Source of the DNA: Allomyces arbusculus
Taxonomy: Eukaryota > Blastocladiomycota > Blastocladiomycetes > Blastocladiales > Blastocladiaceae
Direction of reading: 5' to 3'
DNA length: 64,000 nucleotides
Assembly (NCBI GenBank): GCA_027604705.1
Contig: JADHYV010000005.1
Coordinates: 496,001-560,000, forward strand
The notes under the pieces were generated by a model that did no database searches, was not told the origin of the DNA, and worked only from the letters and a program-made list of their open reading frames with translations. The position numbers and the translations under genes were made by a program. Shown here piece after piece: positions 23,990-63,844 of this stretch (position 1 is the first letter of the stretch; each line of letters opens with the position of its first letter).

Positions 23990-24470
23990 GGCTGCAATAT
24001 GCTCATGTGACCAATTGATCCAGGTGGCAAGTCCTCCTGTGGCTCCATTACGCAGTTTGAGACCTGGTTGCTGCTTGCCAAGGTCTCTTGTCTTGAGCAA
24101 GTTGTTGGCGTGCTTTTGCACATTTTATATGTACCTGCTGAACCCTCTTATCTTAAAAAAATGGCAATGGACTTGGGCGATGTGATGGGCAGAGAAAATG
24201 ACCAGGAAACTGACACAAGCAACTCGAATTTAAATGCTGCAACCATGTAGTTCGGTGCTGTCATTGCTGTGTTCATGGCCATGTTGATGGTGGGCCAAGT
24301 TGATGTTGATCAAGGTGTGCATCTTGATCACACACACATGCTCAAGCTCAAGGCAACACACTCACTAACCATGGCCTGTACAAGTTGCAGGTGCAATGTG
24401 GTGAGGCGGACAACCAACTGTAGCTGCCCGTGTGTGGCAGGCAAGTGTGAGTTTCAGTGTGAGCTGTGAG
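23990..24470. repeat. CpG-depleted island, probable old repeat
   Basis: In about 480 bases I see only around seven CpG dinucleotides, against one every few bases in the neighbouring genes, while TG and CA are abundant. This is the footprint of 5-methyl-C deamination over an old methylated insertion. No transposase, reverse transcriptase or terminal repeat is readable, so the family is unknown. Confidence 0.45.
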
Positions 24471-24506
24471 TAAGTGTGCACATTTCTTGCTTGTAATTGT
24501 TGTGAC

Positions 24507-24551
24507 CCCCCATCCCCACCCCATCCCCACCCCATCCCCATCCCCACCCCC
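24507..24551. repeat. CCCCATCC / CCCCATC microsatellite
   Basis: Tandem CCCCATCC-type units (about five, imperfect) ending in CCCCACCCCC. Confidence 0.8.
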
Positions 24552-25025
24552 TTTGTTTCAGGATGTGTCATTTTTTCGTGTGTTGAGGCACAGGTGCACA
24601 CCTGTCCGGACTGCCTATGTTCATACTTGGGCGCTGGCGCTGAGACGTGCTCTTTGCCAAACAAACCAACGCGAAAGACACCGACATGGCAAACGACCAA
24701 GGGAAAATGAAGCACGCCCCACGAAGTGAAATTTCCAACCGATAAATATCAACCAACAATGAGAATGAACGCCCAACCAAAAACAACAAGAAAAGAGGCG
24801 GGCCGAGCACAGACGATCAACGGCAGTGACGGGTCGAGAGGGGGAAATTAACGAAGAATCAGCGCTGGAACGGCAGTGAGACGACGATTTACCGGCAAGA
24901 GGACACGGAAGAGAAGAAAGAGGAGACAGTAAAAGCGCGGGAGGAGAAAGGTGTCTAGAAAAACCGGTTCTAGCATCTGGTTGGGTTGGCAATTGTAAAT
25001 CGGCAGTAGGCCATTAGGCGTCGCG

Positions 25026-35800: not shown

Positions 35801-38800
35801 GGCGGGCGGCCGGGAACGTGCCGGCCGAAATGCAGCTTGGGCCGCGGCGCGTGCCGTTTGGGTTCCTCGCGCGGCCGCCAAATGCGGAACTGGGGGCCCC
35901 GTCGGCGCCAGTAGCCGCGAACGCTGCGGCAGCAGCTGCAGCGCAGGGTTCCGGGACGAGCGACGCGACGGTGGCCCCCGTGAACGGCACCGCCGTCGCG
36001 CAAATCATTTCGGCTGCGGCGCAGTGGTCGGGCGCCGACAAGGACAAGGCGCGGTTCGAAGGGGATGATCCCACCGGCGCCACGGGTGGCGGTGCCGCAA
36101 TCGACGACGACGTCACGGACCGCGCGCTCGTCGAGCCCGGGTGCACGACCGAACGGATCCCGCTCGTCTACGCGCACGCGAATGCGACCTACAAGAACCT
36201 GTTCAGTGTCGCCGACGGCACGCCGCTTGCCGACCGAATGCCCGAGTCGGAGTTTCTCGTGCACGCACCCGTGATCTTGGATGTGGTCGAGCCGCACCGG
36301 ATTCGCCGCGTGACTGCGCGGATCATGTCGATTGACAAGTGCTTTGAGCCCGTTGCCGTGCACCATTTGGGGTACCTGTCCCCGGGTGCAAGGTTCAATA
36401 TTCATGTTCGGAAACGGCGTAATATGCGGCCGAGGACGGGGAGTACGGCCGGTCTGGATGCGAACTTGGCCGCGATGGGGGCCGTGCGTAGATCGCATGT
36501 CGCGATTGCTTCAGCCGATGTGTCGTCGTCGCGTCTTAGCAGCCAAGATCCGATTGCCGCACACGCGCAGGCCATGATGGGCGGTGGGCGGCGGCTCAGT
36601 TCGGCCGACCCGGTGGGCGCGAGCCGCGCGTCGGGGATCGTTGGCGACGACGAGGGCGACAACGAGTGGATGACCGTGCAGCTGCAAGTCGAAGAGGAAA
36701 CGTCGAACCCGTTCAACTTGTTGCGCGCGTGGCATAACGGCCAAGTCGCGACCAGTGCCACATCTGCCGGCCAGACAGCAGACGGCACCCTCTTCTATGC
36801 GCCGCCCGCCAATGTCTCGCCGATGCCCGTCGGGTACACGTCGACCGGCGAGCCGTACTACGCGGCACCGCAGTCGCTCAAGCCGATCCCCGCGGGCATT
36901 TTGCCGAACGGCACGCGGTACTACCACACGGGCCCGCTCGCCGTGTCGGGCTGGGACTCGACGGTACCGGGCACGCACACACTCGCCGGATTTGATTTCC
37001 ACGGAAAACCCATTTTCTTACCGCGCGGGTGCAAAATCCCAACCCCGTCCGGGTACACGCGCATGGGTGTGCCTTACTACGACCTGTCGACGATCTTGAT
37101 CGAGCGCGGGATTCTCGTCCAGGACCTCGACTCGCAATTGACGCCGGACGTGCCCGGAAAAGTGACCGAAGCATTGCGGTCGCCCACGTCCCCGGCCTGG
37201 AGCCGGATCACGTCGTATATCCAGTCGGTCGACGACAGCAAGAACGTGTTCCGATCGGCCAGCTTTGACGGGGTCACGCAAATCTGGTGGCCGGCCAACC
37301 CGGCGCGCGGGCGGAACATGAACTTGCTCGACCAGTCGCTGCAGTTCATTCGCGACTACGAGGATTTTGGGCACCTCAAAGCGCCGAGTATCAAGACGGT
37401 GCTTGAACCGCCGGCGCTCGCGTTCCAGTCAGTCACGGGCGTCGTGACCCGGCCGTGCATTTTGAAGTTTCGCGCGTTGCGCGGCGATTACGACGAGCGC
37501 GACTACTTCTTCACGGTGGAACCGATGGAGATTTTTTCGGTCGATGTCTTCCATGTCCGGCTGCAGGGCGAGGGGATCGTGCAGGTGCGCGTGTCGTGCC
37601 ACCCTGCCAAGATGAAGTTCATGCAGGTCGAGGGCGCGCTGGCCTTGATTGATGCGACGGGACGACGGCTCGTGACGTGTAAGCTCTCGGCACTGCGCAA
37701 GTCGTTTGTCAAGGTGTCGCCGCTCAACGTGCATTGCGGTTGGGTCTTGCCGAACCAGTTGTCGACGTTTGCCGTGACGTGTGAGAACGTCAGCACCTCC
37801 TTGGTACGTCTTTGATTTATGGGCTCAGTGCGTGCGACTTGGATTCCATCTGACGCTCGGTCGGTTCTGTAGGTTCATTTGCAGTTCCAAAGGCCCACCA
37901 ATTCGTTCTACATGGTCGACGACGGCATCAAGCTGCAGAGCCACGAGTCCAAGACGGTCAATATCTCATTTGAGCCGACGGTCGTGGGCGCCTACGAGTC
38001 CAAGTTTCTCATCGAGGCGCCCGGCGGCGAAATCATTACAATCCACTTGGCCGGCGTCTGTGGTGTACCGCTTGCCATCCACCCGGAATCGCGGGCCGAC
38101 TCGGCACTTGGGCCCGACGTGCTTGCACGCGAGCGTTCGGCATTCGTGTCTCGCGTCTTCAAGATCATGGCTAATGGCGAGTCGGTTCTGGGTGTGGCCG
38201 AGAGACACGTCAAGGACCGGTCTGAACAGAACCTGTTCTCGTCGCTGCTCTATGCCATGGACCCAATTGGCCGCCGGCGTAACCACATCACAGTTGAATT
38301 CGGGATTGTCGACGCGTCAACGATGCTGCCGCAACAGGGCGATTTACGGTCGACGGCAAGCTTGTGCCTGACGCTCTTTAACGTCTCGACCGAGGCGTTG
38401 ACATGCTCGCTGCACTCGACGAGCCCAGCGCTCAAGTTTGACTCGCTCGTGCGCGTCGCGCCACATAAGGCCAACACAATCCAGCTCGACTTGACAGTCA
38501 AGACACCCGGCGAGTTCCAAGCAATGATCACGCTCACGTGCCCTGGGTTCACGTCGGTTCCGTGCCTTGTCAAGGCATTTGTTGGGTGCCCCGCCATCAT
38601 TCACAGTTTGCCGACGGCGTGGATGCCGCCCGTGTTCCCGGGCTACGGCACCAGAGTCACGCTGCCGGTCGTCAACATGCTTGATGCGGCCGTCGAGGCC
38701 ACTGTCGAGCTCACGTCAAGCAGCAGCAGGTTCTCGTGTGTGCCGACGGGCACGACCACGGCCGACGTCATGTCGCTCAGTCACAGGCGGCCGAGAATGG

Positions 38801-41800
38801 TCCCGACCGGGCCCGGCGAAAAATCGACGTTGCGGCTGCATTTACCGCCGCATGCCGTTGTGACTTTTGACGTGCACTTTGAAAACGTCGACACGACCGT
38901 CGAATTTGCATCGGTCCAGCTCGTGGTCGCGGGTCAGCGGTCGCCGAGCGTGACCGTGATTTGCATGCCGCTCTGGGACGCCCTCGTTATCCAGGACCTC
39001 GAGGCGCTCACGCACTGGATGGAGCAGTCGTCGATCAACGCGCCGCTGCCGCCGGTCCTGTCCCCGCCACCACTCATCAACAACTCGCCGCGCATGGTCC
39101 CGCCGCCGACAATGACGCTCAAAGCGCGAATTCCAGCACCCAAGCTCGTCAGCCAGCAGCCCATCACGCTCTACAACCCGAGCCCGAACGTGTCGACGCT
39201 GCACCTACTCCTGGCACCCGGCTTCGCGCTCGCAAAGCAAGCGAGTCACGTCGTGCGCGTGAATGCTGGCGACACGATTCACGTGCACGTCGCGTTCCAG
39301 ACGGAACACATAGCTGAGAACCACGCGTTCCTGATTGCCTACCCGGACCAGGCCGTCCCCATTGCCATGCCGCTCGTCACGTGCCCGCTGCTTGCCGTGT
39401 TCCCGCCGCCCTCGCCCGTCACGCGCGAAGTGCTCTTGGATTTCGGCACCATCGAGTCGGGCTCGGCCAAGACGTCCGCATGGTGTATTCGGTCGGCATT
39501 ACTGTGCAATACGCGCGACCAGCCGGTCTTGTGGACGTGTCGATTGCTCGCAACCAAGGGGCGACACGTGCCTTTTGAAGTGCTCGTCTCGGCGGGCGAA
39601 CTCAAGGGGATGGCCACGGACCGGATCGCATTTGCGGCAGTGCCGACCGTGCAAGGCACGTTTGATGCCACGTGCGAGGTTATTGCCAAGGAGCACTTGA
39701 CGGCGCCGCCCGTCGTCGTGTGCCAGGTCGTGCTTCGTGCGCATGTCGTTTTGACACAGGTCCTGGGCTTGCCCGAGGCCTACGATTTTGGCAGTTGTGT
39801 CGTCGGTAGCGTCCAGGAAGCACGCATCACGCTCGAAAACATTGGCAATGTCGTGGCTAAGGTCGCATTCCTCGCGCGGCCGCCCTTTGACGTGACACCC
39901 AACTCGTTCTCGCTGCAAATTGGCGCGCAGCAGCAAGTCCTGATTCAGTACTCGCCGACCGAGTCGTCCAAGGATTCGCTCAACAAGGTCGCGTGCTTCA
40001 TTAACCACAAGGTGGCCATGCTGCGCGTGCTCGGCAAATCGGGTTTTGTCGAGCTCGTGTCGAACAATCACCACAACTTGCTCGATTTCGGGTCGGTCTC
40101 GTCGACTTACATTGCCTGGATGAACGTTTACCTGACCAACCGCGGCACGTTACCGCTGCGGCTCGACCATATCATTTCGAGCAATCCGCAGATCTTGGCG
40201 CTTGAGCTCGTGAGCAAGCAACTCGTCGTGCACACGTCGACGCTGCGGCACCAGCGCGACGGGTGGTCGCTGATCAAGAGCAAAATCAAGGCGCTCGCGC
40301 TGATTGGGCACTTCCTGAGGCACAAGCTCAAGTCGGTCGCCGTGGTCCATGGTGCCGCGGGCCAGACGAGCACGGAACGAGCCGTGACGCGCACCACCAC
40401 CCGACTTGCCATTTCGCGGTCGGACACGGTGCACCTGTCGGACCTGGTGACCGACCCAGACGACCTGGTCCTTGAACCGATGCACTCGTTTGCGCTGCGG
40501 GTCGGGTTCAGCACCGTGCACCAGACGCGGCAAACGACCGACCTCAACTTCCACTACAGCCCGCTCGTGTCGAACGGCGCCGCGCATTTGAGAAAAGTGC
40601 TCAAGTTCACTGTGACGGGATTCATTTACCGCGTCGTCGAGTTTTACCCCAAGGGGATCGATTTCGGGCTCACGCCCGTCTCGTTTGCGTCCACGTCGCT
40701 GCAGCACCTGTTCTCGTCATCGTCGGACACGAGCGAGTCGGCGCGGATGGCGCGGTCCGGGTGCCACCAGCTGCGCATCTCAAACCTCAGCATCGAGACG
40801 CAGACTGTCTCGCTTATGCTCGCCGCGTCCAATGTGCCCAGCTCTGTCGCGTCGCAGCTCGGGTCATCGACGGGCACTTTCGACTCACACGCCATGTCGC
40901 GGAGTGTACGCCCACCGAGCGCGTCGGTCACCAACAATACAGTCGGCGGTGGGAGCGGCAGCATGCACTCGGCGTTCCGCATCGACGGGCGCAACTGGAC
41001 GCTCGGTCCGGGCGAGTCGGTGCGGATTCCCATCCGGTTCCTGCCGGCGCAGCCGCAGATGCAGTACCGCGGCGAAGCACTCTTCCAGCACAGTCACGGC
41101 GTCACGATTATTCGGTTCTCGGGAACCGGCGCGAGCGCCGAGGTGACGCACGGCACTCGCGTGCATTTTGGCGCCGTCTCGATCCACCGCGAGGGCCGTG
41201 TTCGGTTCCAGGTCGTGAACAAGGGTCTGCTCGACACGCCCATTCATTTCCAAATGAAGGAGGCCGGCACGTTCCGGTTCGACTCGGCCGATCCGTATGA
41301 CCTTGAAGAGCACTTGGATGCAGGTAGCGTGCTTGACTTGTCGTTGCTGTGTTACTGCTCGCAGCAGGTGCCGTCGATCACGTCATCGATGCGCGTCAAT
41401 TGGAAGCGCGCGCCGGGCGAGCCGTGGGAGAGTCAGGACGTGCACTTGACGGTGGATGTTGGGTACCCGATGTTTGCCGTCGACCAAATGGAGCTCGACT
41501 TTGGCGTCACGTACACAAAAAAAGTGCTCGAGATTCGGATTCGCAATGATGGCAATGCCAATTGCGCGTGGGAAATCAAGGCCGCACCGATCCTGACGTT
41601 TGCCGCGACCAAGGGCCTGCTGCTGCCGCAGTCGCACCAAATTGTGCACGTCACGTTCCAGCCGCACAGCTTTGACTCGCTCGAGACCAATATCGACTTT
41701 GTCACGGACGCGGGCACCAAGACAATTCTTGCGTACGGCATTGTCGGCGTGCCTTACCTGCACATTCCGGAAGAATTTACTCTGGTCGATTTTGGGATTG

Positions 41801-44800
41801 TCGAGGTCAACGAAACGCACGAGCAGATGATTGTCATGGCCAACACGGGCACCAAGCAAATCGACATGTCGATGTCTCTCGAGCAGGACGATCCCGTGTT
41901 TGCAATTGAGCCCGAGCAAGCGTTCATTGACCCGGGTGCCGAGTTGACGGTCAAGGTCACAGCAAGCCCGCAGGCCTTTGCACGCGTCTACTCGTGCCAG
42001 TGGGTCGTACGCACCACCGATGGCGAGCGGTACGACGGCGGGTTCTCGTGCGTCGGCGGCAAGGCCATTGTCGTTATGTCCAAGCTCTTCGACACGGGGT
42101 CGCGGCCCAACACGGTCCCGCGCGTTTTCAGCGCCGGAAGCCGTCTGCCCTTGACGCCGTCGCATCTGGAACTGCAACCCACGGTCCCGCCGCGCCATTT
42201 CGCGTCGCAGGCGCTCTTGGCCGTGCAGCGGCACGTCGAGACACTCAAGGACGTGACGGCGCAGTTGTCGTCGCCCGAGGCCCATCAACTTGAGCAGGAA
42301 ATTCGGCACCTCGACGAACTGCGTCAAGCGCAGTCCAAGGCGTCGCTCTCGTCGCGGCCGACCACCACGTCGGTCTCGAATAACATGGGCGGGATTGGGA
42401 CACCGGTCAGTGCGACTCGGCCGTCGACACGCGGCGCTGCTGGTGGTGGTGCGTCCAGACCGTACACCCAGAGTGGTGCCACGTCGCCCCTACCGCCCAT
42501 TTCGCCGCGCCCGGCTGGCATTCGGAGCCCTCGCCCGACGTCGGTCTCGACGGCCAAGTTGCGGTTCATGGAAGGGTCGCTGTTCAACCTGCAAGATGTC
42601 CGTGTGCCGATCGAGCAGCTATTTGCTAAGTCCGAGGGGATCATGAAGCGGCTCGAATGGACGGCCGATGGGGGCTATGCCGCTGGCACGGGGTCGCGCG
42701 TGATGCTACAAGTGCCCGCGTCTGACCGCTTGTCGGACTCGGACCCGTCAAGCTTGGACTCGCTGTCTGACGAGCTCGGCGCATCGCCGGCCAAGCCCAA
42801 GGCGCGATTCAAGGGCGTAACTCCTGCTGCTGACACGATTGATGCGGCTGTGGCCAAGGCCATTACGCCCGAGGAGATTCAGCGGCACATTGAAGAGTCC
42901 AAGGCAGCGATTGAGCTCTTGCAGCAGCACATTCCGCACCTCAACGACTCGAAAAACGTGCATATTCTCGAAACGGCGGTTGGGCAGCTCATGGAGTCGA
43001 CCAAGGTCCTCGAGCAGATCATTTACGTGCCCGAAGAGGACGAGGGTGCAGTGGCAACCGACTCGCAGGACGCTGGTCCGAGAATTTCCAAGGTGTTTGA
43101 GCTCGGCTTGCTCAAGGGCAACGACGTGCTCGAAGACTTCATCATTTTCGACCTGCCCAACCTCGGCAACATGCCGTTCCCGTTCACCATCGCCGTGCAG
43201 CCGGCGAGCATGACAAGCTTTTTTCGAATCAAGCCCGAGGCTGGCGTCATTCAGCCTGGCGGCAGCGTGCCATTGCTCGTCACGTTCAAGGCCGCCGATG
43301 CGGGCGAGTACCGCGCCGAATGCAGCATCTTGTACAAGGGCCAGCCACAGCTCCGGTTTATGGTCACGGCCAAGGTCGGCAACCCGAAGATTGAAGTCCA
43401 GGCCCTCAACCTCAACTTTGGACTCGTGGTCAAGGGGTCGTCGGTCACGCTGCCGTTCCGAATTTCAAATTCCGGTACGTACCGCGACACGATCGAGTTT
43501 GCGCTCGACTCGTCGGCGTTCTCGCTCGACTTCCCGGAACGCAACGTGCGGCTGCACCCGGGCACCGACGTGGTCTTGCCCGTGCGGTTCAGCCCTGTCA
43601 ATGACGACGCGTACCAGACCAAGTGGATGATCTTCCCGGCCTCGCGCGCCGCCTTTTCCGTTGTGCTTGAGGGAGTAGGTGCTGCACCCGTCGTGCGCGT
43701 GACCCCGGCGAAGCTTATGTTTGGCCAAGTTTTTGTCGCGAGCCCCAAGGCCATGACGGTGCAGATTTCCAACTCGGGCAACTGGATCGCTTCGTTACTG
43801 CCACGTTTGACGCACCCAAACTTCACCATGATCGCCAACGAGAAACCCGTCCAGCCGGGCGACTTTTTGGAAGTCGAGCCCAAGGCCACGCTCAATTTGA
43901 GCGTCGTCTTTGCCGCCGACCACCAGGTCGATGCGACGGCGCAGCTCGTCGTCGAAGAGAGCATGACGTTGCAACGCAACACAGTGCAGCTCGCTGGGTA
44001 CGCGGGCGCGTTTGATGTGGCCGCCGACGGCGAGCTCAACTATGGCAACCTGAAGGTTGAAGACTTGGCGAGCCGCGACATGGCCGTGCGAAACCGCGGC
44101 GATTTCTCCGTGCAAGTGCAATTGGCTCTCGACCCACCCGAGCTGCGCGAAACATTCACAGTCATGAACGGCACGCAACTTGTCTGGTCCGCCGCGGCCG
44201 CGGGGAGCACGCTTGACCTGGCGCCGGGTGCCGCAGTCACGCTCACGGTCAATACGTGTCCGAAGTCGTCGATGACCGTTGCGGGCAACTTGACCGTCTT
44301 GGCATCGAGCACGATTGATGGCGTGCGAAAGGAAAAGTCGTCCATCTTCCCGTTCTCGTACTTTGCGTTTGATAACCCGATTGTCGTCGACAAGCGCGAC
44401 CCCGTGCTCGATATTGGCGTGTGGGCCGTCGGCAAGGCGCATTCGATGCCACTGTCGATCACCAATTTTGATAACCGCGACGCGATCATTCGCGCGCGGC
44501 TGGAACCCGTTGAGGTGCCCGGCGCCGCCAAGGACGGCAAGGGCGACGCCAAACCCGGCGCAACCAAGGGAGCCGCTGCCACCAAAAAGAAGAAAAAGGA
44601 CGACGACAAGGGAAAAGCTGGTGCGGCCGGCGCGGGACTCGATGGCAGTGCGGCATGGCAGACGTGCTGGTCGCTGCCGACCAAGGAGATTCCGCTGCGC
44701 AAATCGCAGACCGATGCGCTCGTCATTGATTTTATGGCGTCGGACCTGCCGGAAATGAGCCAAGAAGCCTGGCTCAAGCTCGAATACTCGATGGACGGCG

Positions 44801-47556
44801 GCGTCACGTATGCGCCGCTGCACGTTTACCACGTCAAGGGCAAGAGTGGAAGGCCGAATGTGGTCTTGGTTACACCCATGGTCGACTTTAATTATGTTCC
44901 GTGTGGGACGTCGGAAACGCGGTACCTCGAGCTCCGAAACGACGGCACGGCCAATGCCGAGTGGATCATCGAGAATGGGTGGAGCAACGACGACGTGTTC
45001 TTCCTCGCTGCCGACGCGCTGCGGCAAGGGCTGTTGCGGCCCGGCGAGTCGGCATCGGTGCCCGTCCAGTTCAACGCAGCCGTCACGTTTGAGTTTTCGA
45101 GCGAAATGACGATCATCACTGAGCCCGAGAAACTCAGGGCCGCGCTCCACGGCCAAGGGTGCATTTACCGCATCTACACGGCGGGGTTGCCCAAGGAAAT
45201 CTCGCTCACGGCCGACATCAACGGCGACCTGATCAAGTCGACGCTTACGATTTGTAATGATTGCGTGTTCAGCGTGCCGATCGATTTGACCGTCGAAGAC
45301 CCGCACCATGGCCCCTACCAGCACAACTTGGCGGCGAACCCATCGAGTATTGTGCTGCTGGGTAATGCCACGACCGAGGTGCTCAGTGCCGACCGCGCCC
45401 GATTGGACGTGGACATCGAACTTGCACCCATACAAGCAACCGAGCCGGCCGCGCTGGCTTCACTTATCCGCGACGGGCTGCAGTACTTTGTACACTTACG
45501 CTCCTCGGCCTTCCGCGACGTCACGACGATCCCCGTGCGCGTCCACTTCCCCGTGCGACCCGTGACGTGCAACTTGCCCGACATTCAATTTTCCGACTGT
45601 ATGTACGACATTGGCAAGTCGGTCGTGCTTACGCTCAGCCACCAGAACCGGTTCGCGATTCCGTTGGCCGTGCGGTCCACGCACGAGCTCGTCGTCGTGC
45701 AAGAGTCGATTCCGACGGACCTAAAGCCGCACAGCAAGACGGAGCTGACGGTCACTCTGCATCCGCGGGTTTACGAACGCGACGAAGACATACCAACGTC
45801 TCTTGCCGTATCGGGCGCGCTCGAACTCGCGCTGGGCGGTCTGCTCCCGGCAATCGAGATCCCCGTGTCCGGCCGTCTCGTCGACTTGCAAGACCCGCCC
45901 ACGTTCGAGGACATGGATTTCGGCCCCGTGTTCTTGACCACGTCGCAGGAGCGCGTCATTTCGTTCAAGAACTGGGGCCGGCGCCCGCTCGAGTACCAAG
46001 TGATGTTGCCCGAGCACCCGCCCGCGGCGTTTATTCTCGACGCGAGCAAGCTCAAGGGCCATCTGGCGGCACGCGCCCCGTGCACGATCCCGATCACGTT
46101 CCAGCCGACAGCCGTCGCCACCGTGACCATGCCCGTGAGTCTCGTCACGACCCTCGGCGCCTTTTCGTTCGACGTTTACGCACAGGGCATTCTCCCGACC
46201 GTCGAAGTTGCGCCGCACGAATTGGATTTCGGGACCGTCGGCGCCGGGTTCGCGGAAATGCGCGCGATCACGCTGTACAATACGTCCCCACTGCCCGTGC
46301 GCGTCACCTGCGCGGTCCGTCCCATCGGCGAGGACGCCGCGAGCGTGATTCTGTTCACGGTCACGCCGCCGACGCTTTTGCTCGAGGCGGACGAAAAGCG
46401 GGCGGTGAATGTCATGTTTGATGCGCAAGAGCCCGGGATGGCCGGGAGAGCCATGCTGACGGTCACGGCGCTCGACGACCAGGTCTTGGGGACGTGTCGC
46501 ATGCAGGGACGCACGGGGACGCTGGCCGTGACGTGTGCGGCGGCCGGGTCGACAATCAAGTTCCCGGCGCTCGAGGCCATGGAGGTGAGGAGAAGTGTGG
46601 TTGAGGTCGCGAACCCGGGCGAGATTCCGGTGTTGGTCGCATTTGGCGACGACCAGTTGCAGCCGGTACCGGCGGGCCGCGAGCTGGAGGGCAACGTATG
46701 ATGGGTCTCGCGACTTTTTGGTTCCGCTTCACCATTCTAACGGTCCCATTTGCCCACACGTGTAGACAAAGTGCGTGTCGTTCGGGTGTAAGCCCCACTC
46801 GGTCACGATCCCGCCCGGCGGCACGGCCAAGTTCACGCTGTCGGCAACGGGCATGCGCGAAGGCCAAGACTCGCGCGCGCTCAGATTGATCACGCCGCAG
46901 CTCGTGAAGCCGATCGTATTCGAGTTCATGGCCGAGGCCAAGGTGACGCGAACACAGGACTTGCGCAATTTGCAGCAATTTGCCAAGGTGTGTTGGAGCG
47001 AGGTTTTCGTTGGCGTCGGCCTCGTTGCTCACCATAGTTGCCATTTAGGCTGACTCATCGATCGAGGACAAGCTCTCGATCGAGTACGAGGAGAGACCCA
47101 AATTCAAGTCCGACGAAGGCATTTGGAAAGCGCTGCTCCCGATCGTCAAGATCAACCGGCACGCGGTGGGCCTGGGCAACAACCACCCGCGGATCGCCTT
47201 TGTCGAGGTACGCGCCCCCCACCCTCAACCCTTCGAACCCAGCCCACTCACCCACCCCACCCGTCTAGCCTGGCACGCACCGTCCCTCCGTTGCAAACCT
47301 GCTCACGCGCCCGGCCGCGATCCCGGCCGCCAACTTGCCCAAGAAAACGGGCGGTGCGGGCGCCGCCTTTGTCAAGCGCCCACCTGTCACGCACGTAAGG
47401 GGCCCCGCCGCGCCCTCGGCGGTGCCGAGGATTCCGCCGGAGGTGGCGGCCGCACATGCCGCGCGTGAACGTGATCGACGTGCGGCGCTCGCGCAAATTG
47501 CGCCAGTCGAGCGCATCGTGCAACCGCAGGGGAGTAAGCGGGATCGGTACAAGTGA
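32869..47556 (+). CDS. Giant ASH/MSP-domain axonemal-type protein (HYDIN/CFAP47-like)
   Basis: Six exons: 32869..33525, 33601..37803, 37873..46695, 46766..46987, 47049..47207 and 47269..47556, all phase 0, 4,783 residues. Residues 1-219 are low complexity; about 440-515 is helical (DVIGLLGAAFPRT, LLRRQAVQVLGDL). At about 1280-1390 there are four short repeats of the type P-x-G-Y-x(3)-G-x-P-Y-Y. From about 1480 to the end, at least fifteen ~100-residue beta-rich modules follow, each with a phrase like LDFGTV / LNFGLV / IDFGLTP and the FxP or VxFxP strand ending. These are ASPM-SPD2-Hydin (ASH) or MSP-like domains. Coiled-coil segments lie at about 3070-3110 and 3287-3340, and a Lys/Asp-rich linker at about 3857. 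Length and architecture recall HYDIN (about 5,100 residues) and CFAP47, central-apparatus proteins. I cannot say which orthologue it is, so no symbol is given. Confidence 0.88.
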
Positions 47557-54003: not shown

Positions 54004-54510
54004 GGAAACGAGTGGACTGGGATTATGGGGACTTGGTGGAGAGGGTACTTGCGCGCACGCAACGAATAGAAACCATGGCAACGGGTCTGATTTAGCAGAG
54101 TCATTTCCGTAGATGGTACTGGGCAATAGCGTTGTCGTCGTAGGCATTGTGGTCCAGCTTGGCTCATCCCACGCCATCCATCGCGGTCAACGTGAGTGCC
54201 GGATCCACCAGACCTTGTCCCTGCATCCACTTCGCTGCCCTGGGACCCCCATCTCTGGCGGACGGTAGTGATGGAACTGGCACTGTCAACGGACCCGCGC
54301 ACGGACCAGCGTATGGACAGGCACAGCACAGGCCCGAAAGGCGACAGTTTCAACCAATCACGGCGAAAACGGTTGTATTCAGGCGGCAACGCCAGACACA
54401 CAAAACAAAAAAAAAAACGGGTGATGCTTGACAACAACAACGACGGTAAGGATAATGATACAGAGCAGCAACGCCCAAATTACACCAACACGACAACACA
54501 AACGCTACGA
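54004..54510. other. Convergent 3' flanks
   Basis: About 0.5 kb between the prominin-like gene and tetraspan copy A. From about 54235 it belongs to the duplicated segment. An A11-type run lies at about 54407-54417. Confidence 0.5.
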
Positions 54511-55795
54511 CTATGCGTTCGAGTACCCGCCTTGTTCCTTGGCCTCGACGACCATCGTCTTCGAGTATTGCCAAAACGCGTAAATCAAGTAGAGCTGAAT
54601 AATGCCCCAGATGAGCGACGTCCAGCGGACTGACCCCGACGACACACCGAGAACGATATTCGCAATCAAGAACAAGGCCGTGATGGCGGTGAACACCTTG
54701 AACGCGCGCGGCCAGCGCTTCTTGGCAGCGACAAACCCGAACAGTGACCACAAGAATGAAACGCCGAAAATGGCGGCGAGAACGTAGACAATGACCTTGA
54801 CTTGCGACGTCGTCAACTCGGAGTCGCCGCCCGCAGCGGCCACAGATTCGTTGACCGAGTCGGTGGCAGCATTCGCGCCGTCGACAGATTTGGCGACGCC
54901 AACACTCGCGAGCAGGTAGAGGACAAAGACGACCAGGTTCACAACGAGGTTGAGGCCGAGCAGGAACAGGACGCCCCGGCGGATTTCCATGCACCCACAG
55001 CAAGTGCGCTTGACGGCCGACATGATGAGGAGTTCGGGGTGAACTATGGAGCAGGACGGTGCAGGACTCGGTCAGCAGCAAATCATAGGGCGGAGTGGCA
55101 CGCTGTTCAGCGCGGGCGACGATCCAACGCGGTGTCGCCCTCGTGCACAACCATTTGGTCGAAATGTGCGGACCTGAACGAGGCGCTGGTACAAGTTTAG
55201 AGGATTGCTGCAGGCGAGGTCGAATCGAGGTTGGAGGCAAGGACCGCGAGAATCTCGTCGGGTACTTAAAGGAGAAGCAATACGACGAGACAGCAAGCCG
55301 GGGCAGGCGCTGTATTTGTTCTCGGTGAGGGTGACCGCGACTTGGACGTGTCGGACGAAGGCAAGGAGAGGCAGGGAGGCGGTTGCCCTCAAGCGTGAAT
55401 GTCCAGAACCAGGCACTTGGTGCACCCAGGCGAAGTCCAGCACTGGGTGTGTGGTGGCGTTTTGAGTTGACATTGGCTGCGTGCGTGCACAGTTTCGTTC
55501 GACGTTTTGCATGTGCATCCGATGGAAATGAACATTTATCCTTCTGCAGTCGTTTTTGCGCGTTTACAACCGGCAAATACGCGCACACGCCGCAGACGCT
55601 GCGCTCCAGTTGGTTGCACGGGGGTGAGAGGTGCGCGTGCAACGGCACGCACGGGCGTGCGCCGTGGTGACTGCTGACTGAAGCGTGGAAGGAAAAGGTC
55701 GCGCCAAGTGTTCCTGTGCTGCCGCCAACCAACGAGACGATGCGACAGCATGCGGGACGCGGAGCACGTGCGCGTGGGACGTGCCAAGCTAGTAC
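54235..55795. repeat. Segmental duplication, copy A
   Basis: About 1.56 kb resembling 62075-63712 in the same orientation, including the whole tetraspan gene, its 3' flank (shared words such as GATACAGAGCAGCAACGC) and about 0.75 kb upstream. Shared upstream words include CAGCGCGGGCGAC vs TAGCGCGGGCGAC, GCGCTGTATTTGTTCTC, GGCAAGGAGAGGCAGGGAGG and CGCCAAGTGTT. Boundaries are by eye. Confidence 0.75.
54511..55023 (-). CDS. Small four-helix membrane protein, copy A
   Basis: Single exon, 170 residues. A short N-terminus with a Cys motif (KRTCCGCMEIRRG) is followed by TM1 (about 17-42, LNLVVNLVVFVLYLLASVG) and an external loop rich in Asp/Ser/Asn. TM2 (about 76-99, VIVYVLAAIFGVSFLWSLFG), a basic turn AAKKRWPRAFK, TM3 (about 107-128) and TM4 (about 135-152) come next, and the protein ends in EAKEQGGYSNA. 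I do not recognise a characterised family. The paralogue at 62334..62840 is about three-quarters identical by eye, with the loop the most divergent part, as expected if the membrane core is constrained. Confidence 0.85.
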   Translation of the reverse strand: MSAVKRTCCGCMEIRRGVLFLLGLNLVVNLVVFVLYLLASVGVAKSVDGANAATDSVNESVAAAGGDSELTTSQVKVIVYVLAAIFGVSFLWSLFGFVAAKKRWPRAFKVFTAITALFLIANIVLGVSSGSVRWTSLIWGIIQLYLIYAFWQYSKTMVVEAKEQGGYSNA

Positions 55796-56323
55796 CGACA
55801 GGCACACAGAGGAGAAGGCTTTCCGAAAAGTAAATAAAAAGGAGAAATATAGAGGAGGAGGGCAGAGGAGGATTAGAGCACAGGGCCAGAATCCTAACAC
55901 GAGAGCACAAGGGCAGAGAGACGAGAGAGAGAGAGAGAGAGAACATGGCAGGACCAAAGCAGTACGGCGCCCCGGCACGATCACGACCGCAACATGAGGA
56001 TTGCACCACTTCAGTCGCCGTCCTCGTCCTCGTCCTCATTCTCAGCCTCGCCCATGTTCACATCGCCGCTCTCGGCCGCGACCGCCGCCATTGCTGGTTG
56101 CTCATTGGATCCAGTCTAGCCAACGCCGCGCGCGCACGAACCCTGTCGTGACCGACGCTGCCGACTAGCAGCAGCAGCAGCCGCCAAGGCCACCGCTGCC
56201 TCGCTCGTGGCAATCACGGCAATCCGAGGACTCGTCTCTTGTCGAGCCGTGCGTGTCGGGCGCGTACTCGCGCGCGGCGTAGCCGTCGTGCCGCCGCTTG
56301 ACGCGACCGAGGTCGCCGTGTCC
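55024..56323. other. Upstream flank of tetraspan copy A
   Basis: The first ~770 bases belong to the duplicated segment and should hold the promoter. A (GA)n run lies at about 55920-55942. No coding frame is supportable. Confidence 0.5.
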
Positions 56324-56670
56324 TCACAGCACACTCGACGGCGCTTTGTCGCGCGTGCATGTGGCTCGGTCGGTTCCGTTGCAGACGGCGATGGGGGCGG
56401 AGGTGGTGGAGCCGCTGCGGTCGACGACGACGACGACGGGAAAGCCAAAGGCGTTGGGGCCGCAGGTGCCGGGAGTGCAGCAAATCGAGCCAACCTGTGT
56501 CGCCCACTCTGTACCGCGGCAGTCGATGGTGGTGGAGATGGTGGTCGCGCGGAAGGAGCGGTCATGGGCGGCGCTGCACGGGAAGATGCGGTCGTGCTCG
56601 GCCAAGTTGGCGTCGTAGCCGCAGTCGTGATCGCGGTCGCACTCGATGATGCGGCCGGTCCACTGGGAAA
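56324..56670 (-). CDS. 3' exon of a cysteine-rich protein (partial model)
   Basis: About 115 codons with very strong G/C third-position use ending at TGA (CTRDKAPSSVL). They read WTGRIIECDRDHDCGYDANL, FPCSAAHDRSF, STTIDCRGTEWATQ, GSICCTPGTCGPNAFGF and AVCNGTDRATC. About ten cysteines in a compact, charged stretch suggest an extracellular or zinc/disulphide-stabilised domain. A good acceptor (TTTCCCAG) precedes TGG at 56670, so 5' exons should lie upstream. That region is Pro/Ser/His-rich and I could not settle its frame, and no in-frame ATG exists within the open frame. Family unknown. It lies next to the 3' end of the Fanzor locus on the same strand. Confidence 0.45.
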
Positions 56671-57074
56671 GTCGTGCCGAGCGCCGAACCGACGCCGTCG
56701 CGGGCGAGGGCCGCGGTACAGGGGATGGTGGCGTGATGACGGTGGCAGCAACGGTAACAGCGATGACAAGGGTGCGAGCGGTTGCGGAGGTTGCGGAGCG
56801 AGTGGAGGCGCAGCAGGAGGTGGTTGTGGACGCCGTCGGTACCGCGTTGGCGACGGGGGGTGGCTCAGTTGAGGACGACGACGACGGCCGTGGTGGTGGC
56901 GGGGACGGCGAATGCGCACGCTTGGCTGACGCAGTGCCGCGGGTCGAACGCCGACGTGAGCGGTGGCGGCGGCGGTGGTGGTTAAGCAGGCTGCGCCGAG
57001 GATGCGCCGGTGATGGTTGCGCGGCAGTAGCAGCTTGGCCTCGACCTTGACGCCGCCTCCATCTCCTCTTTCCG

Positions 57075-58610
57075 TCATTCCCACCACCGCCGTCTCCACC
57101 CCCTCCTCCGGGGCCCGGACCGGGGCCGGGGTCGTACTCGCCACCACCGGGCGGCCAGTGGTGAACGCCGTCGCGGTCGCGCCGCAAGCGGGTGCGCGCG
57201 CATGTGCAGCGGGATGCCACACGAGATGATATCGCGCAACGCGACCCTCAATAAATTACGGGCCGCGTTGCGGTGGCGGGCCCGGACGCGCGACCGGCCG
57301 GATCCGCCGCAATCGAGACAGCGACGCGACCCGCGCGAGCCCTCCACCGCGACCATCTCCTGGCCGCACGGGCCACAGAGCTTAGACGTGCACCACTCGT
57401 CGCAAAATTCAATTGTCACGCCATAGCTAATCAAAAAGCGGCCGAGTTCCTTGATCGGCATGCGCGCGTCGCGAATCTGTGTCGCGCCGGCATTGCCCAT
57501 GACGACGAGGACCGGCTTGGTCGTGTCGTCGCCCGGCTCGTGGCGCTTGAGGTAGTTGGCGAGCGACGCAAAGAAGCCGCGGCGCCGGTTCCCCGCGCGA
57601 AAGTCCCACGACGCGAGCTTGGTCGCCAACATGCGCGGCTCAACGTGCCGCACGTGCCGCAACATGTACCCGACAAGCGCGAGCGTGTCGTCGAGCGACG
57701 CCGTCTTTTGCGTCGGCTTGTTCCGGTTGAACGCGGCGAGCACGGGGTCCTGCGCCATGTACCGCCGCTTGAGCCGAGTGTAGTCGCTGCTGGCCATGTG
57801 GTGCTGCGCGTTGGACGCCTTGTCGTAGGTCTCGAGAACCGCGTTGAAGTCGAACCCGGGCGTCGTGAGCATCGCGCGCAGCTCGGGCACGCTCATCGAC
57901 AGCCCGGTGAAAAAACTGCGATGGCCAGGGTCGATCACTTTTACGCGCGCGTAATCGTCGAGCGAGACGTCGCGCCGTCGTACGCGCGAAACTCGTCAGG
58001 ACCATCGGCCGATAACCACGACTTGAGGATCTTGACCGACGAGCCCGAGGGCACGTTATTTTTCGAGGCCCGATGCCTGCGCGGGACCTTGGTAATGGCC
58101 TGCCGCTGCTCGACCTGGCTTGGCTAGAAGAGAGGGGACGCGGTCGGTCAGGAAAGGACGTGAGAGAGGGGAGGAGAACGAGGACCAGATGTTCACGCCG
58201 GACCGCGACCGTGTAGCCATTGGTCGCGATCGAGGCGACATGCATCTTGCGGCGCCAACGACTGTACACGCCCTCCCCTCGGGGGCTCGAGCGCCGGTAC
58301 TCGGGTTTCATGAGCGCAGTAATCACTTGCGGCCGCCCATGGCCTGGCAGCTCGCCGTGCAGCGTCTCAAGGTCGTCGACGATGTCCTGCCATGTCGTCC
58401 TATGCGGGCTGTACCGCTCCAACTCGGCCTCGACGCGGCGCCGAATGAACTGCGAAATCACGGGTGACGCCAAACACCACTTGGCAGTAGCCGTGTCGAT
58501 TGCCAAGTTGCGGCGAGCGACGCGTCACGTCGGCACAATGGTCGGGCACAGCACGACAAACGCGCGCAGCTCATGCCACGAGAGAGGCGCGACCGAGTCG
58601 GGCAATGTGG
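57075..58610 (-). pseudogene. Fanzor-type (eukaryotic TnpB homologue) gene, C-terminal half with RuvC nuclease and zinc ribbon
   Basis: The RuvC-like fold begins at KVIDPGHRSFFTG (catalytic Asp of RuvC-I, codon 57932..57930). It continues through YTRLKRRYMAQDP, VLVVMGNAGATQIRDARMP, IKELGRFLISYGVTIEFCDE and WCTSKLCGPCGQEM, the Fanzor/TnpB 'DE..TSK.C..C' signature, then RRCLDCGG (second half of a C-x2-C...C-x2-C zinc ribbon) and RARHRNAARNLLRV. The last motif is normally RD.NAA, so the third RuvC Asp is His here (57275..57273). Upstream, on the same strand, lies an exon with ISQFIRRRVEAELERYSPHR, PQVITALMKPEYRRSS and MHVASIATNGYTVA, and an 80-bp intron (58124..58203). Between that exon and the RuvC part the reading frame changes near 57975, and a TGA interrupts the frame near 58530 unless a short intron is invoked. 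Fanzors are RNA-guided DNA nucleases of eukaryotes related to IS200/IS605 TnpB. This copy looks decayed or catalytically altered. Confidence 0.75.
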
Positions 58611-58619
58611 TCTTGATCG

Positions 58620-60960
58620 GCTAGCCGCATGGCGCGCGACATCGAGCGATTCGATGAGACACAAAAGTTGGATCCACTGGTGAATCGGCGTCCAAAACCG
58701 TTGCCGGGGGTCTGCTTGCCGCAACACGAGCCACTCGCGCAAGACGAGCACAAGCTTGGCCCGCACGAGCACGCGCCGCTCGTCCTTGGAAATGCGCGGC
58801 AGCCGCTGGCGCACCGTCGGCGGGCGCGGGTCGCGGCGGTAAGGACGAGCATGGCCGGGTCCCTACACGGGAACGGGAGCGGGACCAGGTGGCGGCGGCG
58901 GTGGCGGCAGCGGCGCTGGTACCGGTGCGGGTGCGGGTGGTGGCGGCGGTGTGGGTGCGGGTGGTGGTGGTGGTTGCACCGGTCCGTGAGCCGCGGGCAC
59001 TGGTGACAGCGCGCGCTTGCCTGGCCACTTGCCGGTGCACCGCGGCGGTGGCGGTAGTCGCGCCGGCGTCGCGAGACAGAACCCGGGCCCTCGTGCAGGT
59101 ACCATTGAGCGACATGCTCGCGCTTCGAGACGTGGTCGCGGTTGCCGCCCTGCGAGCGCGGGAACGCGAGCGGGTCCTCGGGCATCGGCGTCGCACGACG
59201 GGCGCGGGCGGCGGCAGCGGCAGCTCATCGCCGTCATCGTTGTCGTCTGGCGGCAGTGGCGGCTGGGGGTTGCGCTGCCGCCAGTCGCGCAGCGAGCTCC
59301 GCGGTTGGCGGCGCGCCGGCCGCACGAAAATCGCGGTACCGGTCAAAGTCGGCCCAAGTGCTCGCGACCTTTTTCAGGTACCGGTCCTTTGGATCACGCG
59401 GGCGCGACTTGATGCGCGTCGCCTCGGCCTGGATCCACTCGTTGATCTCGTCGTGCATGCGGTTGTCCATGTTGAGCGTCGCGTAGTAGTTGGCCAAGTT
59501 GTTATACGTGCTCCGGGGGAATGTTTGGAGCACGCGCAGACAGCCGTCGGCCGTGTTGAAGCGCGGGCCCGAGAACTTCGTCGAGAAACGGCCAGAAACA
59601 TGGCACTTGGTCAAACGGCCCGTGCACGCCGTCGTCGTGCTGGGTGAGCAGCGTCGCCTCGCCGCTCACTTTGGTCGTGAGAGCGAGAGCAACTACAAGG
59701 CATCAAGACAGGTCAGTAAAAGCGTCGACCAAGTCACTTCCATGGCGGATCCAGGTCAGATACGCACCTTGGTCGTGTTGTTCGACCCCGGAATTTTGTC
59801 AAAAATGTCGACCTCGATGGCTTATGGCAAGTACGGGAGCGCGCGGCCCGCAACAGCTTGCCAAACACCGGCAGCGCCCGCGCCGTAGATTTCGCCTTGC
59901 CCGAGACCATCCCCTTGCCCGACTTCAAGTACCGGATCCGCGACTAGAGCAGCAGCAGCAGCAGGTTCGCCATCGACTGGCGCAGCAGCCGCAGCAGCAA
60001 TGGGCGGCGCGTTCGCGAGCGCTGCGTGCATCCGGTAAATGTGCCCTTGGATCAGCGGACCGGTGAACGCAGCCTTGTGCGTGATACCCTCAATGAGTTC
60101 TGAGATTCGGGCAGTAACACCGTGCGTCGCACGTCCATGCACGAGCGCACGCCGCAAGCGCATTGTCGTCGTGCCAGATAGCAATTGGGCATGGTGTAGT
60201 CGGGCAGGTAGACGTCGGGCGCGAGGGCAAGAGCGACGAGGAGCAGGAACACAGGCAGGACGACGTCAAGCACGGACGTGAAGAGCGGGAAGACGTTGGG
60301 CGCGGGCGCAGAGAGCAGCGCGAGCAGCAGCACAGTCGTGAGCACGTCCTTGATGTGCAAAACGACCAGGTGCAGCGCGACCAGGTCGGCGACACAGTCT
60401 AAAAATGGGGTTCAGATTGGTGGAACGCGTCAGTTTCGCGATCCATGAGAACGCTGACGCGTAGAGGGGAGAGAGGAACACATACATGCTGTGCACTAAC
60501 TGGTTGATAATGCGCGTGACGAGCAGCGGCGTGGGATCAGCGATGCCATCTAAACATGGGGTTCAGGTCGGTGAAGCACATCAGTTTTCAGGTCTACTCA
60601 AGCGTGGGGGTGAGGGACACGTCCGCGTCTTGCACGGACCGGTTGGTTATGCGAGGTGAAGACCAGGTGCAGTGTGACCAGATCGGCGAAGCAGTCTAGA
60701 CGGTTTTGGATCAGTGAAATGCGTCCGTTTCACGGTGCGCGGGAACGCCGACGTGTAGAGAGGAGAGAGGAAGACGTACGCGTCGTGCGCCGACCGCTTG
60801 ATGTCACCCGTGATGGCGGCCGTGAGGGCCCAGGCGGCAGCAGGTCTTGGTGGACCCGACACGAGTTGGCACTCGGCACACTTGCATCGGGGGTGCACGC
60901 GCGCGGGGCGCGAGCGAGTCGTGCCGGCGGTGACCGTGGCCACGGTGGTGGTTGGTCCTG
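58620..60960 (-). pseudogene. Fanzor-type locus, N-terminal half
   Basis: Several G/C3-rich stretches line up on the minus strand in the order expected for a Fanzor N-terminus but do not join into one frame by eye. They include RCKCAECQLVSG and ITGDIKRSAHDA (about 60890-60780), and TRIINQLVHS then DCVADLVALHLVVLHIKDVL (about 60520-60330). Further stretches are ARISELIEGITHKAAFTGPL with IQGHIYRMHAAL (about 60110-60010), and YNNLANYYATLNMDNRMHDE with INEWIQAEATRIKS (about 59500-59390). The last is PRISKDERRVLVRAKLVLVL with REWLVLRQAD (about 58800-58730). A Pro-rich low-complexity stretch separates the last two. Introns with GTACGT and GTATGT donors and TAG acceptors are visible at 60696..60779 and near 60400-60490. 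No convincing ATG is found downstream of the TATA box in the frame of the first exon. Confidence 0.5.
60364..60803 (-). repeat. Three diverged tandem copies of an exon-intron unit
   Basis: Units at about 60661-60803, 60531-60656 and 60364-60510, each about 130-150 bp. The outer two share GACCAGGTGCAG, a CAGTCTA acceptor (complement), GTAGAG(A/G)GGAGAGAGGAA and the tail leading to TTGAT. The middle copy shares ATGGGGTTCAG and GTGAAGCACATCAG with its neighbour. On the minus strand each unit holds the end of one short exon, a whole intron (with an alike CTCTCTCC tract) and the beginning of the next exon (D-C-[VF]-A-D-L-V-x-L-H-L-V). Confidence 0.65.
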
Positions 60961-62333
60961 GGCGGTTGGGTGGGTGGGTTGGTTGCGTGCGCCTTGGTGC
61001 CTTGGAGCAGTGGTGCGCAGCAGGGACAGGAGCGACCGTCGCGGGGGGACAGTGCGGTCTTTATACGCGCGCGCATCGTGCAGGGCAGCGCGTCGTGGGA
61101 GGACGCGCGCCGTCGTGGATGGTGATCAAGGGTGGGAGGGCCGGCGAGGGGATTGCGAAGCCTGTAGATAATCGTGAATGATCCATCCAAGGACAAGAAT
61201 GTATTTTTCATTTCCGTGTCGCGCCGCGGTAGATCCCACATTCAAACAAGCACCATCGCTTATCAGTTCTTCCTTGATTCCCGACGCGCACTTGCGCCGT
61301 GAAAGCATGCATTTCGGCGGGCGCGGTGCCACCGCTTGGCATGCGTACCTGGTCGCGTCGGTCGCCGTCGAGCGACTGCTCGTAATCATGTTGATGGCGA
61401 TTGCAACGGACGTGAACAAGCAAGTCACCGATCTGGGCACAAATCCGGATAGTGAATGACCTGGGCAAACGACGATCACCGCACAGCAGCGGTTGTAACT
61501 AGGGCGCATCAAAATGATGATGGCGGTGCGCGACCGCGTTGCTGGCATTGCGGGACACGGGCGCGCCGCATTCCATGCGTTACCAAGTGTGGAATAAAGC
61601 CAAATGTCCGTGAGCGGTCAGCAAGCGGTTGTGTTGACTCTGCGACAGGAGCGTCGCAGTGGAGCGCGACTTGAATGAAAACGTACAGCGGTCAATTCGA
61701 GTTGGTTGTCGACGAGAAAGAGGGAGCGGCAACGGCTCGAGGCGCAGGGGAGATGTCGCCCACAGGATGGGGATGGTGAGCGCGCCGCGAAGAAAATGTC
61801 GTTTGGGAACCATTTGTGGAGCTGGCTCATCACGAACGCGCCTTTCACGGAAACTCAGGTCAAGCAAACGCCACAAACTATCAATTAAACCATACTGCAA
61901 ACTCCAAACCGTCATATCGAAGACATCAAACCACCAAACCAGCTAACCGGCCCGTCATACCAGCAAACCCACAATCCACTTCAAATCAACTGCCTGGTTT
62001 GCTCGTTAGCCGGTTTGCGCCCCCTTCCCCTCCCCAGCGAACCAAGGTCGGGCGCATGCCCATATACCACTTAGCTGCCTGGGTGCATCCATACCCATCA
62101 CTGAATGGGAGTGATGATGGAGCTGTCACTGTCACCAGACCAGGGACACGCCGCGTGGATAGTAGAGGACGGCTTTCAATTGATCAAAGAGCAGAAGCGG
62201 ATGTATTCAAGCGGCAACTGCAGGCACGAAAAAGAGGGTGATGCTTGACGACAACGACGATGATGGCGAGAAAAATGATACAGAGCAGCAACGCGCAAAC
62301 GCCAACCAGACTCTCCCGATCATCCTGCAGCGA
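60961..62333. other. Intergenic region between the Fanzor locus and tetraspan copy B
   Basis: About 1.4 kb. It holds the TATA box at 61058..61065. From about 61870 to 62030 it is A/C-rich, with several CAAACC/GGTTTG words partly inverted relative to each other. The last 260 bases belong to the duplicated segment. No coding frame is supportable. Confidence 0.45.
61058..61065 (-). promoter_or_regulatory. TATA box upstream of the Fanzor locus
   Basis: TATAAAGA on the minus strand, about 120-170 bp upstream of the first Fanzor-like coding stretch. Confidence 0.45.
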
Positions 62334-62840
62334 CTACGCGCCCACATACCCGCCTCGTTCCCTGGCCTCGACGGCCATCGTCTTCGAGTATTGCCAAAAC
62401 TCGTATAGAAAATAGAGCTGAAGAATGCCCCAGATGAGCGACGTCCAGCGCACTGCCCCAGACGCGACGCCGAGAACGATATTCGTAATTAAGAACAACG
62501 CCGTGATCGCCGTGAAGACCTTGAACGCGAGCCGCCAGCGCTTCTTGGCCGCGACAAACCCAAACAGCGACCATAGGAACATGACGCCGAAGATCACGGT
62601 GAGAGCGTAGACAACGGCCTTGACGTGGTCCCTCGTCAAATTGGAGTTGCCGCCCGCAGCGACCACGTCGGACGAGTCGTTTGTAGAAGCAGCGCCGTCG
62701 GCGGATTTGGCGACGCCCAGACTCGCAAGCAGGTAGAGGACAAAGACGACGAGGTTCACGATGAGGTTGATGCCGAGGAGGAGCAGGACGCCGAGGCGGA
62801 GGTCCATGCATCCACAGAAAGTGCGCTTGGCGGCCGCCAT
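62334..62840 (-). CDS. Small four-helix membrane protein, copy B
   Basis: Single exon, 168 residues, starting MAAAKRTFCGCMDLRLG and ending EARERGGYVGA. Four hydrophobic helices occupy the same positions as in copy A (GINLIVNLVVFVLYLLASLG; VVYALTVIFGVMFLWSLFG; AFKVFTAITALFLITNIVLG; TSLIWGILQLYFLYEFWQYS). The loop after TM1 is the variable part, and the frame is intact in both copies, so both are probably functional. Function unknown; no characterised family recognised. Confidence 0.85.
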   Translation of the reverse strand: MAAAKRTFCGCMDLRLGVLLLLGINLIVNLVVFVLYLLASLGVAKSADGAASTNDSSDVVAAGGNSNLTRDHVKAVVYALTVIFGVMFLWSLFGFVAAKKRWRLAFKVFTAITALFLITNIVLGVASGAVRWTSLIWGILQLYFLYEFWQYSKTMAVEARERGGYVGA

Positions 62841-63844
62841 GATGACGCGGTCGGGCGGAGATGGTATGGTCTGCTTTCGAGGAACGGCTCGGTGAGTGGC
62901 CATCCAGGGACGGAATGGCATCGTGTTTAGCGCGGGCGACTATCCGACGCGATCCGTCGCCGCACCCTCGTAGACAATAGTTTGGTCGGGATGAGGTACC
63001 ACTTACCTGAACGAGGTGTTGGTTGGTGCAAGAGCAATCGGGCCGACGTGCAAAATCCAAGCTGATACAAAGAGATGGAAAGCAAGGACCGAGAGGGTCT
63101 CGTCGGTTAGGTACTTGGAGGAGATGTGAAAAGGCGCGATGGCAAGCGGGGGCACGCGCTGTATTTGTTCTCTCGCCGAAGGCAGCAGCCCTGAGTTGTC
63201 GGACCAAGGCAAGGAGAGGCAGGGAGGGCGCAGTTTGCCCTCAGCATGAACGCCCAGCCCCAGGCGCTTGGTGCGCACCCGGGCGAAGTCCGCCCCGAGT
63301 GGTTCAGGATTGGTTGGTTTGGGTTGATGCTGGTGTGCTTGGTTGCGCGTGCGTGCGCGGATTTGTTCGACGTTTAGCGTGCGCATCAGCGGAAATACAT
63401 TCAACTCCTTCTGCAAAAATGGATTCCACACGTCACACATGCCCGAACGTGCGCACAGCACCGTGGATGCCGCGCTCCAGCAGGTTGTAAGGGGCGCGAG
63501 CGGCGTGCGTACGACGATGCGTACGGGCGCGCGCTGTGGTAATTAGTGCAGCGTGGTCGTTGCCGTCAGAGCCTGCGCCAAGTGTTTCCCGTGCTTCCAA
63601 ATCAACCAATCAACCAACCAACCAAGCAACCAACCAACCAGCCAACCAACGAAATGATGCACAATGGGAAACTAGACGCGGAGCGTGCGTGCGGGACATG
63701 CCGAGCAAGCACTGAAGGCGTTTGAGGTTGCCTTGGTATTACGGCAGGGGCGCATGGACGACAGGCTGCCAAGCGTTTCTGTACCCATCGACTGTTGGCA
63801 GGATGAAAAAACGGCACACGACAAGACGGGTTCATTCATTCATT
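62841..63844. other. Upstream flank of tetraspan copy B
   Basis: Mostly duplicated sequence (to about 63712), expected to hold the promoter. It includes the CCAA microsatellite. No coding frame is supportable. Confidence 0.5.
63599..63655. repeat. CCAA microsatellite
   Basis: Imperfect (CCAA)n with CAAT and CAAG variants, about 57 bp. The aligned position in copy A (near 55728) has only two units, so the array expanded after the duplication. Confidence 0.85.

Follow-up and report, generated by a model that had tools for sequence, protein, structure and literature searches.

Does a locus on the minus strand of contig C5 of Allomyces arbusculus, a fungus of the phylum Blastocladiomycota, encode a working Fanzor? 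The DNA analysed, below called the window, comprises 64,000 nucleotides (C5:496001-560000). The genome scanned for related copies spans 25.9 Mb in 197 contigs, and copies are named after their contigs. A working Fanzor is a nuclease whose guide RNA is transcribed from the transposon end. Cutting has been established for other Fanzors, and the cutting of matching DNA is thought to help the element persist. An initial annotation had placed a Fanzor gene at 57.1-61.0 kb; this extent is about right, but the gene is interrupted there and its catalytic function probably lost. The locus is read here as a decayed Fanzor1-type gene, one of seven Fanzor1-derived loci found in A. arbusculus, which most likely encodes no active nuclease (probability roughly 0.85), because histidine replaces the RuvC-III aspartate and three interruptions break the frame. 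A sister copy on contig C4, stripped of nearly all its cytosine-guanine dinucleotides (CpG), matters more than the window copy.

Fanzor1 signature of the window copy

An open frame of 306 amino acids (57075-57995, minus strand) contains DPG, VLVVMGNAG, DEWCTSKLCGPC, CLDC and RHRNAARN. The motifs from which the locus had been named (IDPG, DE..TSK.C..C, a second CxxC and NAARN) all lie in this frame, in the order claimed. The Fanzor clade has been described as marked by DPG together with a glutamate placed six residues ahead of the zinc finger (PMC10711439). The window copy has both: RuvC-I reads IDPG, and the relocated glutamate stands six residues ahead of the finger in DEWCTSKLC. The C4 zinc finger follows its [TS][TS]xx motif as TSKLCGPC...CLDC. 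At the TDG position of the WED domain, the window copy and C12 read TNG, C45 reads TDG.

RuvC-III of Fanzor and TnpB reads RD. The catalytic aspartate is present as RD in C45, C12 and C18 and lost in the window copy, where NAARN follows RH, a detail that the initial annotation did not hold, like the interruption of the gene. The stretch between the second CxxC and this histidine is longer by five residues. On account of the lost aspartate, the window copy counts as a degenerate descendant rather than a working Fanzor.

Across all six reading frames of the window, a single match to the expression D-x-G-x(100-200)-E-x6-CxxC-x(10-20)-CxxC was obtained, at the Fanzor locus; none of 60 first-order Markov simulations matched (0/60). 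A chance origin of the motifs was rejected on this result. Stop-to-stop frames of at least 306 amino acids number 34 in the window, against a mean of 4.4 in simulations; the openness of the Fanzor frame alone is therefore weak evidence.

Homology to known Fanzors and TnpB

A family profile was built from five copies (window, C45, C12, C160, C18), with C1 omitted because its pieces sit in two frames. Searched against the PDB, it matched 22 distinct sequences at E<=0.1. All but one of these (21/22) are named TnpB, OrfB, Fanzor, Cas12-type, TranC, RNA-guided nuclease or transposase; the remaining match is an RNA polymerase subunit. Expect values were 3.8e-9 for the mimivirus TnpB-like L79, 4.7e-5 for Parasitella parasitica Fanzor1 (9cf0) and 0.031 for Spizellomyces punctatus Fanzor1 (8gkh). 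The alignment with 9cf0 has the same glutamate and zinc-finger layout as the Allomyces copies. Both 8gkh and 9cf0 are full-length proteins of solved structure, whereas the window copy is interrupted. Among the five aligned copies, PF07282 matches all (5/5) and NCBIfam guided_TnpB 4/5 at E<=0.1. The profile comparison suggested with the initial annotation thus reaches solved Fanzors and TnpB with the five copies together, while the window copy alone stays below the cut-offs of PF07282 and guided_TnpB (13.7 bits, cut-off 100, for the latter). Pfam gave no other family for the window copy than the sub-threshold PF07282.

Fanzor1 of Allomyces macrogynus was already on record in 2013, with three families listed under AMa (PMC3627910, Table 1). 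By this listing it shares protein family and fungal genus with the window copy, which is interrupted and without the RuvC-III aspartate. The window copy itself is ordinary, a degenerate member of a family already known from the genus.

Gene structure and interruptions

When the C45 protein is aligned to the window, a single homologous gene emerges on the minus strand, starting at 58805 and reaching about 57183. Two frame changes (near 58610 and near 57975) and one stop are needed to align the window to the unbroken C45, so the coding sequence is not continuous in the way expected of a Fanzor1 gene. The initial annotation had inferred introns. One intron is plausible in the window copy, ending at 58124: C12 has, at roughly the corresponding point of the protein, a gap that looks like a canonical intron (GTACGT...TTGCTAG), and C45 reads through at this position. 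Further introns are no more than plausible. A TATA box had also been noted, and TATAAA is found by eye upstream of the gene (Table 1).

An intact gene, with the lesions arising from assembly errors or unrecognised splicing and histidine replacing aspartate without loss, is improbable. At least one intron is likely and the 5′ part is hard to model, both of which would suit it. However, such a reading has to account for every lesion at once, the two frame changes and the stop as well as the catalytic substitution, and by the paralogue alignment introns would find little space where the frame changes.

Flanks, element ends and guide RNA

The genes to either side were correctly described as duplicated: the two copies share 71% identity over 1,592 columns (54227-55732 versus 62067-63609). 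About 6.3 kb lie between them, with the Fanzor gene inside.

The guide RNA of Spizellomyces originates downstream of its gene, where the 3′ inverted repeat lies (PMC10432273). No counterpart of the conserved inverted repeats or of the mapped guide RNA that this source describes for Spizellomyces Fanzor1 was found at the window locus. The proposal that a neighbouring flank encodes or encoded the guide RNA gained no support. Searched against the genome, the 3′ flank (55540-57160) had no match but itself, and Rfam gave no match in the window at the gathering score. Four 141-nt pieces around the gene were folded and compared with shuffles. Those of the 3′ flank folded no better (57020-57160, z -0.15; 56880-57020, z +1.30), the gene's own 3′ end slightly better (57160-57300, z -1.69) and a piece upstream of the gene better (61000-61140, z -2.19). 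The 3′ region of C45 matched the genome in pieces of 70-73 bp on C187 and C139. A repeated guide-RNA or ghost-element flank was rejected, the window flank being single-copy and the C45 region having short pieces only.

Bacterial TldR proteins are nuclease-dead derivatives of TnpB. They act as RNA-guided transcription factors (PMC13418256), and a nuclease-dead Fanzor may likewise have been retained to bind guide RNA and DNA in regulation. The replacement of the catalytic aspartate with DPG, glutamate and zinc finger persisting would fit such a role. Yet two frame changes and a stop mean that the frame has not been retained, an open frame of this length means little among 34, and genome search of the 3′ flank, Rfam and folding gave no guide-RNA signal. 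A retained regulator is accordingly quite unlikely.

Weighing of the reading

An unrelated RNase-H-fold protein with look-alike motifs, which the weak single-sequence scores (best PDB E 0.25; no homologue among 4494 candidates at E<=0.01) would allow, is hardly credible and was rejected on the PDB matches of the five-copy profile, the motif being matched in 0/60 simulations.

Several results weigh against a decayed Fanzor1. Taken alone, the window copy scored 22.8 bits with PF07282, below the cut-off of 26.3. Two single-sequence protein searches, one of them the search of 4494 candidates, found no homologue, perhaps owing to their need for shared five-residue words. The lesions are inferred from one assembly and from one paralogue of about 38% identity. 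Of 24 inverted repeats, the five longest include no pair that bounds the gene; no transposon ends being found, the mobility of the window copy is unproven. The copy has a normal ratio of observed to expected CpG (o/e 1.57 and 1.24), and its own decay thus bears no CpG signature.

Against these points stand the signature and the five-copy profile. Of the annotated identity, Fanzor1 descent holds; a working nuclease does not, in view of the RuvC-III histidine, the frame changes and the stop. The window copy is probably inactive.

Related copies in the genome

Six loci have recognisable RuvC or zinc-finger sequence of Fanzor1 type (window, C45, C12, C1, C160, C18), a lower bound from a protein search of the fungus's own genome. 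Contig C4 holds one remnant of the N-terminal half only, bringing the Fanzor1-derived loci found to seven. These stand at different stages of decay. Complete signatures occur in two of the six, C45 and C12. C45:127354-131352 is a single open frame of 1333 amino acids with a long low-complexity C-terminal tail, and C12 consists of frames of 923 and 558 amino acids. The RuvC-III residue is D in C45, C12 and C18, H in the window, E in C160 and N in C1; the relocated glutamate is replaced by K in C160 and M in C1 (C1 by eye in both cases). C45 and C12 are the candidates for functional study.

PF07282 also matches four TnpB-like copies, all on contig C22 (334 kb), which may be viral. One gene was examined and matched PF07282, HTH_OrfB_IS605 and, below threshold, OrfB_IS605. 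It overlaps a frame with a resolvase domain, the arrangement of IS607 elements. This IS607-type TnpB/Fanzor2 has the PF07282 zinc finger in common with the window copy and differs from it in the IS605-type OrfB domains and the adjacent resolvase-domain frame.

CpG erasure in the contig C4 sister

A block of 3,664 bp (C4:776655-780318) contains 5 CpG against 212 expected, and none over 3.2 kb (776793-779973). It consists of a diverged sister of the 5′ part of the window locus (Table 1) and a 561-bp unit. The unit has 30-nt terminal inverted repeats, 90% complementary, and matches C132 in part. On one side, the edge of the CpG-poor block (776655) lies near the end of homology to the window gene (776710); on the other, the block continues through the unit.

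At 294 window CpGs aligned without gaps, C4 has 1 CG, 146 TG, 104 CA, 16 TA and 27 others, a change to TG or CA in 250/294. As a control, C4 retains 79/105 of the GpC sites that do not adjoin a CpG, and identity outside the window CpGs is 83% (1447/1749). Changes from C to T, window versus C4, amount to 166/295 in CG, 28/166 in CA, 30/247 in CC and 14/159 in CT. The sister thus displays a feature of repeat-induced point mutation (RIP) and of CpG decay: in mobile DNA, transitions fall mainly on one dinucleotide. Ordinary change at 324 aligned TG/CA sites should have created about 28 new CpGs; the aligned C4 part has two in all. Slow deamination alone would seem to fall short of so thorough an erasure. 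The loss is most simply explained by cytosine methylation followed by deamination, which would have stripped the sister of CpG, and host silencing would on this ground probably have contributed to the decay of some copies.

The substitution pattern suggests that mobile DNA in this early-diverging fungus is erased by a methylation-driven and possibly RIP-like process. A further step would be to credit Allomyces with a mutational defence that depends on methylation, is aimed at CpG, resembles RIP in effect and irreversibly erases mobile DNA including Fanzors. This proposal, made because of the CpG-free 3.2 kb and the two CpGs in place of about 28, is tentative and rather doubtful. RIP and CpG-type mutation of transposable elements in Dikarya (PMC4352252, PMC9246332) share with the C4 sister the focus of C-to-T changes on one dinucleotide of mobile DNA, and a DNMT1-family gene is likewise present in A. 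arbusculus. In contrast to Dikarya RIP as described in these sources, the C4 erasure occurs in Blastocladiomycota and is practically complete over its 3.2 kb. CpG-type mutation signatures are known in some Dikarya (PMC4352252), and early-diverging fungi have been described as having near-undetectable 5-methylcytosine (PMC13297926). Among the titles listed by the literature searches, none was on such CpG erasure in Allomyces, and PMC11244446 contains none of six terms on CpG depletion. The near-complete CpG loss in an Allomyces element offers a direct way to test for genome defence by methylation near the root of the fungal tree.

Other copies speak against a simple story of CpG erasure. C12 (o/e 1.17), C45 (0.97) and the RuvC half of C18 (1.26) are not strongly depleted. 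A further CpG-poor block of 3,021 bp (C18:162104-165124; 14 CpG against 188 expected) lies near the C18 Fanzor remnant, itself not depleted, and matches only itself in the genome. Depletion over the gene is milder in C1 (0.35) and C160 (0.53).

The sampled DNA is CpG-rich. Over window 1-56000, 112 half-kb pieces have a median CpG o/e of 1.28, with 3 below 0.5; 64 pieces of five methyltransferase loci have a median of 1.29, with 0 below 0.5. A DNMT1-like gene on C3 matches DNMT1 chains with E 1.8e-53, mainly over the methylase domain. DNA_methylase is the one domain that Pfam found in it at E<=0.001, BAH being absent. Five more contigs carry DNA_methylase matches. The loci on C10, C12 and C27 all carry CFTK-Y motifs, and are presumably DNMT2-like candidates. 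A reverse-transcriptase search of the genome gave 10 places.

Other features of the window

Table 1. Positions of the Fanzor1-derived locus and neighbouring features in the window
Feature	Position	Strand	Basis
RuvC and zinc-finger half of Fanzor1-derived gene, open frame	57183..57995	-	C45 paralogue alignment, PF07282 22.8 bits, profile matches to solved Fanzors
RuvC-I aspartate codon (DPG)	57930..57932	-	copy alignment
Relocated RuvC-II glutamate codon, six residues ahead of first CxxC	57396..57398	-	copy alignment; rule of PMC10711439
C4 zinc finger CGPC...CLDC	57309..57377	-	Pfam match, copy alignment
Histidine codon at RuvC-III aspartate position (D in C45, C12, C18)	57273..57275	-	copy alignment
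Probable intron	58124..58196	-	alignment start 58185; GTGAAC start at 58196 by eye
In-frame stop	58525..58527	-	C45 paralogue alignment
Upstream coding block, homologous to C45 from residue 295 onwards	58611..58805	-	C45 alignment
Probable N-terminal coding block, weak similarity (20% identity) to C12 and C45 N-termini	59234..59665	-	alignment
Stretch with CpG-free DNA-level sister on contig C4	58628..61055	-	DNA comparison
Direct repeats, about 150 bp, 5′ part of gene	60364..60813	.	repeat families D3, D7, D11
TATAAA, possible promoter element	61060..61065	-	by eye
Duplicated flanking gene region, first copy	54227..55732	.	pairwise DNA alignment
Duplicated flanking gene region, second copy	62067..63609	.	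pairwise DNA alignment

By eye, the direct repeats at 60364-60813 look like repeated intron-exon units. Two CpG-depleted blocks lie elsewhere in the window. The first (23929-24576) has 7 CpG against 39 expected; 1.1 kb around it matches six other contigs at 69-84%, plus one 38-bp piece at 90%, and the block therefore lies in a dispersed repeat. The second (31587-32263) has 5 against 41 expected and two short matches elsewhere in the genome. A gene for DNA polymerase delta occupies 13018-15882 on the minus strand, and its product shows 97% identity over 96% to an Allomyces arbusculus protein. An open frame of 2,942 amino acids (37873-46698) encodes Ig-like domains of HYDIN/CFAP65 type, as is expected because the fungus has flagellate spores.

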